Assembly: GCF_035621495.1 (NCBI RefSeq)
Contig: NZ_CP141821.1
Coordinates: 1,764,760 to 1,828,759 of the forward strand
Length of the DNA stretch: 64,000 bases
Direction: 5' to 3'
DNA from: Thermococcus sp. SY098
GTDB taxonomy: Archaea > Methanobacteriota_B > Thermococci > Thermococcales > Thermococcaceae
Part shown: piece by piece, positions 36,393-38,009 of the stretch
Layout of the letters: each line of letters begins with the position of its first letter
Numbering within the stretch: the first letter of the stretch is position 1
Notes under the pieces: model-generated
What the model saw: the letters and a program-made list of their open reading frames with translations, nothing else
Databases searched by the model: none
What the model was told of the DNA's origin: nothing
Made by a program: the position numbers and the translations under genes

Positions 36393-36794
36393 TTAGCCCC
36401 TGTATATTTTTATGTCTGGAGGTGTTACAATGAGCTTGATTTCATACTTAGAAACTTTTGCAAGATCTCCACCAAGCCCATGTACCATACCTTTTATCTG
36501 CTCTGCAATCTTCTCCAGTATCTCCTGCTTTGACTCAAGGGGGGTTAAGTCAACTATGACAATATTTCCTTCCTGAATTTCTTCAGAAATCTTTTCAAGA
36601 TCAGTGTAGCTGGTGACAACGATTTTTTTGATGTATCTAATTTCGGGCTTTGCAATTTCCTTTGCAAGCTCATCCTCCTCAAGGGGGATAACATCAATAT
36701 CTGCCCTTACTTTCCCTTCAAGTTCCTTCCTTGAAAATTTTAGGGGCTTTCTTTTTGGCTCTTCTTTCTTAATAATTTTGTCAAACAGTCCCAT
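36393..36794 (-). CDS. sepF: SepF-like cell division protein
   Basis: A 133-residue protein. It begins MGLFDKIIKK, the short amphipathic helix that anchors archaeal SepF to the membrane, followed by a Lys/Glu linker and the SepF core (YIKKIVVTSYTDLEKISEEIQEGNIVIVDLTPL; GMVHGLGGDLAKVS; LIVTPPDIKIYRG). SepF tethers FtsZ to the membrane. ATG 36794 behind GGAGGG is chosen over an ATG five codons upstream because it starts with the anchor. Confidence 0.88.
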   Translation of the reverse strand: MGLFDKIIKKEEPKRKPLKFSRKELEGKVRADIDVIPLEEDELAKEIAKPEIRYIKKIVVTSYTDLEKISEEIQEGNIVIVDLTPLESKQEILEKIAEQIKGMVHGLGGDLAKVSKYEIKLIVTPPDIKIYRG

Positions 36795-36868
36795 TATTTT
36801 TCCCTCCATGAACCTTAGACTGAATTATTTTTGTGCATTGGTGTTTATATTTCTTGTGGAAGGGCGAC

Positions 36869-36983
36869 AAGGGGCTTCGCCCCTTATCTCCCTTTACCCT
36901 CAATCCCCATCTTTCTCTATTGGGGAAACTACGTTTCCCTAACCCTTCCTTTTTTCTTAGCTACCGGGGGAGCATAGCTCCCC
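36869..36983. repeat. Array of three GC-rich 7-3-7 hairpins in a 438-nt gene-free gap
   Basis: Three perfect hairpins with 7-bp stems and 3-nt loops: AAGGGGC-TTC-GCCCCTT (36869-36885), GGGAAAC-TAC-GTTTCCC (36923-36939) and GGGGAGC-ATA-GCTCCCC (36967-36983). Pyrimidine-rich spacers separate them. A weaker CGCTC-GAA-GAGCG lies at 37079-37091. No coding frame is evident between sepF and the ribosomal operon. They could be a structured RNA, a repeat element or a terminator/boundary structure. Confidence 0.6.
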
Positions 36984-37159
36984 TCGCCCCTCATATTTTT
37001 AAAACTAATATTTGTGGAATGTTATGAGCTTAGTTCAAATCCATAAACTGATTTTGATTTGTGTTCCTTATTCTCTTGCGCTCGAAGAGCGATGTTTTAA
37101 GTTGATTTGCTTTGCAAAAATTTTTCATACTTCAAAGACAGAAAAAGGGTGGAAGGGTT

Positions 37160-37176
37160 CGAAAGTCTTTTAAATA
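37160..37176 (+). promoter_or_regulatory. Main promoter of the large ribosomal protein operon
   Basis: CGAAAG (BRE-like, from 37160) leads into TTTAAATA (37169-37176). Transcription would start near 37199, giving a leader of about 34 nt to the SPOUT methyltransferase gene. It is the best promoter seen before the 16-kb gene run. Confidence 0.6.
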
Positions 37177-37232
37177 CTTTCCTTTTACTCCATCACAGCT
37201 TCCCCATGTGTATAAGTGAAGGATGAGCAAAA

Positions 37233-38009
37233 ATGACATTACACATCTTCATTCCAGATTCACTCCTTGAAGAGACAGCCGACCCAAAAATAAGGACATA
37301 CAAAGTTGGGCAGATAGCAAGGGCAGCTGCAATCTTCGGTGTTGAACACATATGGATTTACAAAGCCGGCGGCAAAGATGGAAAGTTCATAAAACTGATC
37401 CTTGACTACGCAGAAACTCCCCAGTACCTCCGTAAGGCATTGTTCCCGATAAGGAAGGAGCTTAAATATGTTGGTGTGATCCCTCCTTTAAGAACTCCCC
37501 ACCATAAGCTCAAGGGAAGACCCAAGCTGGGGGAAATTCGGGAGGGTGTAATCATTAAAAAGGGAAAGCGGCTTTACGCGGACATTGGCCTTGACGAGCT
37601 GGCTCTCGTTGAAGGCTCTGGAGAAGGGCGAATGACGTTCAAAATAGTTTCAGTGAATCCCCTGAGGGTAGTTCCGGCGAAACCTGCTGAATACTGGGGA
37701 TACAGGGTTCATCTCACGAACAAAACACTGGCAAAAACACTTAAAAAGGCAAGACTTGACTTAGCAATCGCGACCTCACGTAAAGGTGAGGATGTAAGGA
37801 AAGTTAAGCTCCCTCCTCTGGAGGGGGAGATCGGATTCGTGTTCGGATCGCCGAGAAAGGGCGTGATGGAGATCCTGAGAGACTTCAATGAGGATTATCC
37901 CTTTGATCTAATCCTCAATACGATTCCAAATCAAAAGACAAAAACGGTTAGAACCGAAGAAGCCGTGTTGGCGACTTTGGCGGTGTTTAATTTCATAAGG
38001 AGGGATTGA
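37233..38009 (+). CDS. SPOUT-class RNA methyltransferase (DUF171 / SPOUT1 family)
   Basis: A 258-residue protein with the deep-knot SPOUT layout: an N-terminal half [25 protein letters not shown], an inserted beta-barrel near 75-150 ([20 protein letters not shown]), and a C-terminal AdoMet-binding knot with [10 protein letters not shown] and [21 protein letters not shown]. It probably methylates rRNA; human SPOUT1 is a homologue. As first gene of the ribosomal operon, 1 nt before L3, it likely acts in ribosome assembly. Confidence 0.88.

Follow-up and report, generated by a model that had tools for sequence, protein, structure and literature searches.

Gap between sepF and the L3 operon

Two oppositely oriented transcription units border a gene-free gap in the window, the 64,000-nucleotide stretch of the genome of Thermococcus sp. 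SY098 analysed here (GC content 43%). To the left lies a sepF-like gene and to the right the operon of a SPOUT methyltransferase and ribosomal protein L3. The gap contains four small hairpins, A to D (Table 1), with centre spacings of 54, 44 and 110 nt. Three perfect hairpins with 7-bp stems and 3-nt loops (7-3-7) and one 5-3-5 hairpin had been reported in the initial annotation of this DNA, and all four were recovered at exactly these coordinates. The right-hand part of the region (37106-37260) shares 89-99% identity with relatives.

Table 1. Features of the sepF-L3 gap (positions in the window).
Feature	Position	Strand	Description
sepF-like gene	36393-36809	-	left flank of the gap
Probable TATA region of the sepF promoter	36842..36857	-	predicted from sequence; flush with the repeat; nearly invariant in six relatives
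Window copy of the dispersed mosaic hairpin repeat	36858..36995 (~138 bp)	+	slots 1, 3 and 4 of the four-slot form; copies elsewhere in own and related genomes, orthologous alignment
Hairpin A (slot 1)	36869-36885		AAGGGGC-TTC-GCCCCTT, 7-3-7, loop TTC
Hairpin B (slot 3)	36923-36939		GGGAAAC-TAC-GTTTCCC, 7-3-7, loop TAC
CCCTTCC box beside hairpin B	36943..36949	+	nearly invariant in the family (alignment A1); beside the same palindrome in other phyla
Hairpin C (slot 4)	36967-36983		GGGGAGC-ATA-GCTCCCC, 7-3-7, loop ATA
Inner part of another dispersed element, unlike the hairpin repeat	37012..37105		holds hairpin D; sequence matches in relatives
Hairpin D	37079-37091		CGCTC-GAA-GAGCG, 5-3-5, loop GAA
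Probable BRE/TATA of the methyltransferase-L3 operon	37160..37180	+	predicted from sequence; conserved, separate from the repeat
SPOUT methyltransferase-L3 ribosomal operon	from 37233	+	right flank of the gap

If four or more G/C are required in the stem, the whole window has only five perfect 7-3-7 hairpins, three of which are A, B and C, located inside 115 bp. Dinucleotide shuffles (n = 200) yielded 1.2 such hairpins on average and in no case three within 130 bp; the cluster of A, B and C is real and beyond chance. Folding of a 281-nt segment as single-stranded DNA gave a z-score of -4.6. Hairpin D, taken alone, is within chance (seven 5-3-5 hairpins of this kind in the window compared to 3.5 +/- 1.9 expected), and this is the only point in favour of a chance cluster of unrelated hairpins. 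Such an origin of the array has virtually no probability left, being ruled out by the shuffles and by the homologous copies dispersed in this and other genomes.

Copies and distribution of the repeat

In a DNA search of seven genomes of the genus, the segment 36904-37001 matched four other places in the SY098 genome and several in its relatives, in both orientations. The pattern GGGAAACNNNGTTTCCC, representing hairpin B, occurs in three of the six genera of the family and in 39 of 94 genomes (reversed control: 0), and the module ACAAGGGG(N5-7)CCCCTTATCTC, representing hairpin A, in 30 of the 94 (control: 0). With a covariance model built from modules B and C, six copies were identified in the SY098 genome and up to nine in others; the nine g3 genomes yielded none, and genus g5 a single weak match. 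In the window and a 400-kb sample of the SY098 genome, every perfect GC hairpin that is non-coding and not part of the rRNA locus is a member of the hairpin repeat; genome-wide hairpin counts are based on this 400-kb sample together with the pattern and model searches. The initial annotation had proposed a search for the same hairpins elsewhere in the genome and in related species, and had named lack of conservation and of further copies as arguments against its reading; dispersed copies were found with zero control hits, and the array is conserved. The 17-mer of hairpin B, GGGAAACTACGTTTCCC, is present in four IMG/VR contigs, two of which also carry the CCYTTCC box described below, while no blastn match pointing to a plasmid or virus remnant was obtained among phages or plasmids.

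The assumption that the four hairpins are of one kind holds for A, B and C, which form one repeat copy, and fails for D, which belongs to a different sequence block. This second element is approx 275 bp long and fuller in G004 and G006; the gap thus contains sequence from two different dispersed elements. In G002, G004 and G005, the sepF-L3 gap (L014:1580-2790, L005:1578-2765) harbors an ORF remnant between oppositely oriented repeat copies or parts, an arrangement resembling a composite element. The remnant is lost from the SY098 genome, and no Pfam match above the cut-off was obtained for the one filling the G002 gap.

Anatomy of the repeat

A unit of the repeat comprises a G-rich/C-rich stem of 6-8 bp, a loop of 3-4 nt and a pyrimidine-rich spacer, altogether approx 45 nt. 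Copies are dispersed in both orientations and contain one to four units of different type in a fixed order. The fullest form was found in genus g4, where slot 1 reads ACGAAAGACAAGGGGG-CTCCG-CCCCCTTATCTCTCTGTACTCTCAAACCCC and slot 2 GGAGTGGGG-TTCCA-CCCCACAACCCC, a T-rich stretch is followed by slot 3, GGGAAAC-TAC-GTTTCCC-CACCTTCC, and slot 4 reads GGGGGGC-TAAC-GCCCCCACACCCCC. Slots 1 to 4 show losses and swaps among copies, and a second hairpin family, marked by AAACTTTG...CAAAGTTT ends, can take the place of slot 1. No clear terminal inverted repeats were found for the element as a whole. At the window site, GGAAGGG and CCCTTCC bracket hairpins A and B, which was seen in none of the other copies read. 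On the minus strand of the window copy, positions 36880-36908 (GGGGATTGAGGGTAAAGGGAGATAAGGGG) fit a G-quadruplex pattern. G-quadruplexes as a common feature of the repeat were dropped, since the G-runs are missing from the g4 copies.

The loop of the hairpin B pattern is TAC, on the C-rich strand, in nearly all cases. Loops of the TNC/GNA type account for 81 of 110 in the family and for 11 of 53 in control hairpins, an enrichment inflated by common descent. Most loops are TNC and thus correspond to C-GNA-G minihairpins on the opposite strand; C-GNA-G represents the class of very stable DNA minihairpin loops (literature cited in PMC6479982).

Genomic context of the copies

All copies read lie extragenically, between genes. 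The distance from the 3' end of a tRNA gene to the start of module A is exactly 9 nt for tRNA-Thr, -Leu, -Arg, -Gln, -Val and -Cys in various species (tRNA-Arg(tct) of the SY098 genome is among them) and 10 nt for tRNA-His, the module following in the direction of the tRNA. A copy with the 9-nt placement is also located behind the C/D RNA sR36 (gene identified by Rfam), and further copies have their start at the stop codon of gcvT or of an htpX-like protease gene (named by eye). This placement in the direction of the gene would suit a transcription-termination or RNA 3'-end element, whose hairpins and T/C-rich tracts end or protect the upstream tRNA, sR36 or mRNA transcripts, and two hairpins of the window gap score as terminator-like. 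However, the window copy at the sepF promoter and a copy at 615944 have no upstream gene in that direction and abut divergent promoters, most tRNA genes examined in the SY098 genome lack the repeat, and archaeal termination generally depends on U-tracts with aCPSF1 rather than on hairpins (PMC8716108). A role at transcript 3' ends is the leading rival explanation, but it does not suit the window copy and is unlikely overall.

The tRNA-His site was read in approx 70 genomes. The repeat is present there in G001, G049, G054 and G078 and absent in the SY098 genome and G005 (plain AACGATTTT), and many other genomes have different hairpin families in its place; an alignment of filled with empty sites breaks off after the tRNA. 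In this 3' flank (L015, L249-L318), three or more further dispersed families with hairpins, seemingly mutually exclusive, were observed, namely TAACAGCCCTT...AAGCGCTGG, AAGAAACTTTGC...GCAAAGTTTCATCAAAG and TTCTAACAAACTTCGCC.... In genus g4, a conserved four-hairpin array shared by approx 20 species is located directly upstream of lipS1 (lipoyl synthase; L023:1355-1600, L204, L209, L211, L215, L216), between a duplicated first part of lipS1 and the intact gene; the start of lipS1 thus forms a long duplication on either side of these copies. The copies at sR36, lipS1 and the window site are common to many species and well conserved, and this strong conservation could mean a function at those sites.

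Evolution of stems and loops

At the orthologous window site, compared in six species, the stems scarcely change and decay only in G003, while the loops differ: loop A is TTC, GAA or TTT, loop B is TAC or GTA, and loop C is ATA or TAT. The pairs TTC/GAA, TAC/GTA and ATA/TAT are exact reverse complements differing at all three bases, so that inversion is a far simpler explanation than substitution. Loop inversions by template switching have been reported in rRNA hairpins, bacteria included (PMC8794818), and the same process can be considered as a possible cause of those observed here.

Slot-2 stems contain compensatory changes (T-A to C-G, G-C to A-T, C-G to T-A); 26 cells were changed on both sides, a value as high as this being reached in 0 of 500 shuffles. 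No covariation was found for hairpin C in alignment A1, in which loops of 3 and 4 nt are misaligned. The search for covariation suggested in the initial annotation was thus positive for slot 2 and negative for hairpin C. The changes in slot 2 would fit a palindrome kept in either RNA or DNA.

A structured RNA or cis-regulatory leader formed by the three hairpins would account for these compensatory changes, for the RNA fold of the window copy (z = -4.8), in which a GGAAGGG/CCCUUCC helix encloses hairpins A and B, and for the conserved related array just upstream of lipS1 in g4. This explanation is improbable, since only the window copy, of those read, showed the enclosing helix, the loops are freely inverted, hairpin C does not covary, and the context is inconsistent, with copies 3' of genes as well as upstream of promoters and in both orientations. 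Rfam, to which a lax search was also applied, includes no family of this kind and gave no match at the gathering score. The proposal of a structured RNA at this site is not supported, given the missing Rfam match, the loop inversions between species and the occurrence in both orientations to neighbouring genes. A set of candidate binding sites for a DNA-architectural or regulatory protein would agree with the conserved palindromes and their GNA-class loops, and with the position of some copies next to promoters. The low copy number, together with the inconsistent gene set and position, leaves little room for it, and such sites are very improbable.

The history of the element differs from that of its surroundings. 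Between G000 and G005, only 2 of its 129 non-loop sites are different, compared to 45% and 20% of the third codon positions in the flanking genes. Between G000 and G006, 13% of the element sites differ compared to approx 6% in the flanking genes, a contrast weakened by the fact that G006 is a low-coverage metagenome bin. The element tree disagrees with those of both flanking genes. The mismatch would be explained if lineages had exchanged the element, or if it were under strong constraint in some of them. Third codon positions of sepF differ by 45-56% between G000, G001 and G006 on the one hand and the other four genomes on the other, twice as much as in the methyltransferase gene next door; a replacement of sepF in one lineage is possible.

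Hairpin B motif in distant bacteria and archaea

The 17-mer GGGAAACTACGTTTCCC was also found in unrelated genomes. In a sample of 73 places outside Thermococcus, which was not selected for the box, CCYTTCC is located within 25 nt 3' of the TAC-oriented core in 30 cases and its complement 5' in 9 more, while random stretches lead to an expectation of approx 0.5% per side; the wrong-strand word was found in 0 of 73. A tRNA gene lies within 150 bp of 13 of the 73 places (3% expected), or of 20 if introns are allowed (4% expected). A relaxed pattern occurs 1 to 25 times in each of 20 hand-picked genomes, with no control hits; examples are a Myxococcales genome with 25 copies and two Patescibacteria with 10-11. 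In Nanoarchaeota, the motif is located in apparent tRNA introns together with a GGGGC-TCC-GCCCC hairpin. Hairpin B combined with CCCTTCC was identified in 1 of 380 Patescibacteria genomes, the query genome itself, and the cross-phylum motif is therefore sporadic.

Dispersed repeats of the form GGGAAAC-NNN-GTTTCCC with CCYTTCC nearby (L062, L067, L074, L087, L088, L061, L066, L348-L387) were observed in Myxococcales, Patescibacteria, Omnitrophota, Eubacteriales, Betaproteobacteria and several DPANN archaea. In Nanoarchaeota and Aenigmatarchaeota (L074:740-900, L087:1385-1560, L082 around 2327), the motif lies inside apparent introns of different tRNA genes; those in tRNA-Ile and tRNA-Gly have near-identical left parts, as if an intron had moved between tRNAs.

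On the basis of these sequence matches, hairpin B and CCCTTCC might tentatively be regarded as the core recognised in a mobile hairpin element that is sporadic in bacteria and archaea and favours tRNA genes. The Thermococcaceae array would then be a mosaic built around this core and moved by a putative activity at the level of single-stranded DNA or RNA. The recurrence across phyla may reflect shared descent through transfer or convergence on a stable, template-switching hairpin. That a single unit should recur together with its box in such distant phyla is unexpected and deserves a survey of its own.

Interpretation of the array

The array is probably a member of a low-copy, extragenic, mosaic family of non-autonomous palindromic DNA repeats of the Thermococcaceae, similar in structure to bacterial interspersed mosaic elements (BIMEs). 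Evidence for this reading comes from the dispersal of the copies, their modular order with the swap in slot 1, the exact placement behind stable-RNA genes, the presence/absence differences, the loop inversions, the compensatory changes in slot 2 and the disagreement between the trees of the element and its flanking genes. The low copy number, the strong conservation of the copies common to many species and the missing covariation of hairpin C argue against it, and mobility is not supported by any target-site duplication or partner enzyme. As a non-autonomous repeat, it would be spread by an activity acting in trans or through recombination of one copy with another. New copies would land intergenically, preferably right at the 3' side of genes for tRNA, sR36 or proteins, and template switching at folded-back hairpins would keep the stems perfect and flip the loops. 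As a passive spacer, the window copy most likely just separates the sepF promoter from the L3 operon, which is the weakest step of this interpretation.

Neither a description of the Thermococcaceae repeat nor the printed 17-mer was found in the open literature, most subscription journals lying outside the search; the table of REP counts in the RepRanger paper includes Pyrococcus furiosus but not Thermococcus. The repeat is a new archaeal variant of mosaic palindromic repeats, although its novelty is not certain. Palindromic extragenic repeats have been studied best in bacteria with transposase partners. A family in hyperthermophilic archaea with no visible partner, placed with nucleotide precision behind tRNA and C/D RNA genes, offers a countable system for the spread of repeats.

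Comparison with known elements

Among the three ideas of the initial annotation (structured RNA, REP-like element, site for DNA-structuring proteins), the REP-like element came closest. Recurrence as an extragenic mosaic palindromic repeat was borne out; a REP in the strict sense was not, as only six copies and no Y1/RAYT transposase are present. Y1 (PF01797) had no match in the SY098 genome, and one of seven genomes of the genus has one. A REP/RAYT system (REPtron) was rejected because of this lack of PF01797, which is also absent from 5 of 13 other genomes with the B motif (8 have it). An integron attC reading was likewise rejected, as the stem ends, compared by eye, do not match the attC boxes. 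Neither a GTAG nor a CGTC tag, as in PMC3733652, was found at the stem foot in the copies inspected.

The BIMEs and REPs of enterobacteria and pseudomonads resemble the repeat in being extragenic and mosaic, with several types of palindromic unit joined by conserved non-palindromic linkers, often 3' of genes. They are bacterial, whereas the Thermococcaceae repeat is archaeal, has no RAYT in the genome and shows a fixed placement behind tRNA and sR36. REPs usually exceed 100 copies (PMC2817692), compared to up to approx nine per genome here. Miniature elements of the MITE type share with the repeat the short, non-coding, dispersed form and the presence/absence differences between species; the repeat differs in that neither clear terminal inverted repeats nor a target duplication were seen, and no related transposon was found. 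The second family of the gap, which includes hairpin D, looks closer to a MITE than the hairpin repeat does.

The loops resemble those of GNA-triloop DNA minihairpins of the d(GCGAAGC) class, since on the G-rich strand most of them are GAA, GTA or GGA with a closing C-G (or T-A) pair, and the TAAC tetraloops of the repeat read GTTA there. These minihairpins are known as a property of oligonucleotides, whereas the enrichment in the repeat is known from sequence alone. In hairpin-loop inversions by template switching (PMC8794818) and in small inversions of chloroplast hairpins, the loop is likewise reverse-complemented and the stem unchanged. Such inversions have been described in rRNA genes, microRNAs and plastids; here they occur repeatedly in a dispersed intergenic repeat of archaea, as inversions of three-base loops, so that the template-switch model can be put to the test in a genus amenable to genetics.
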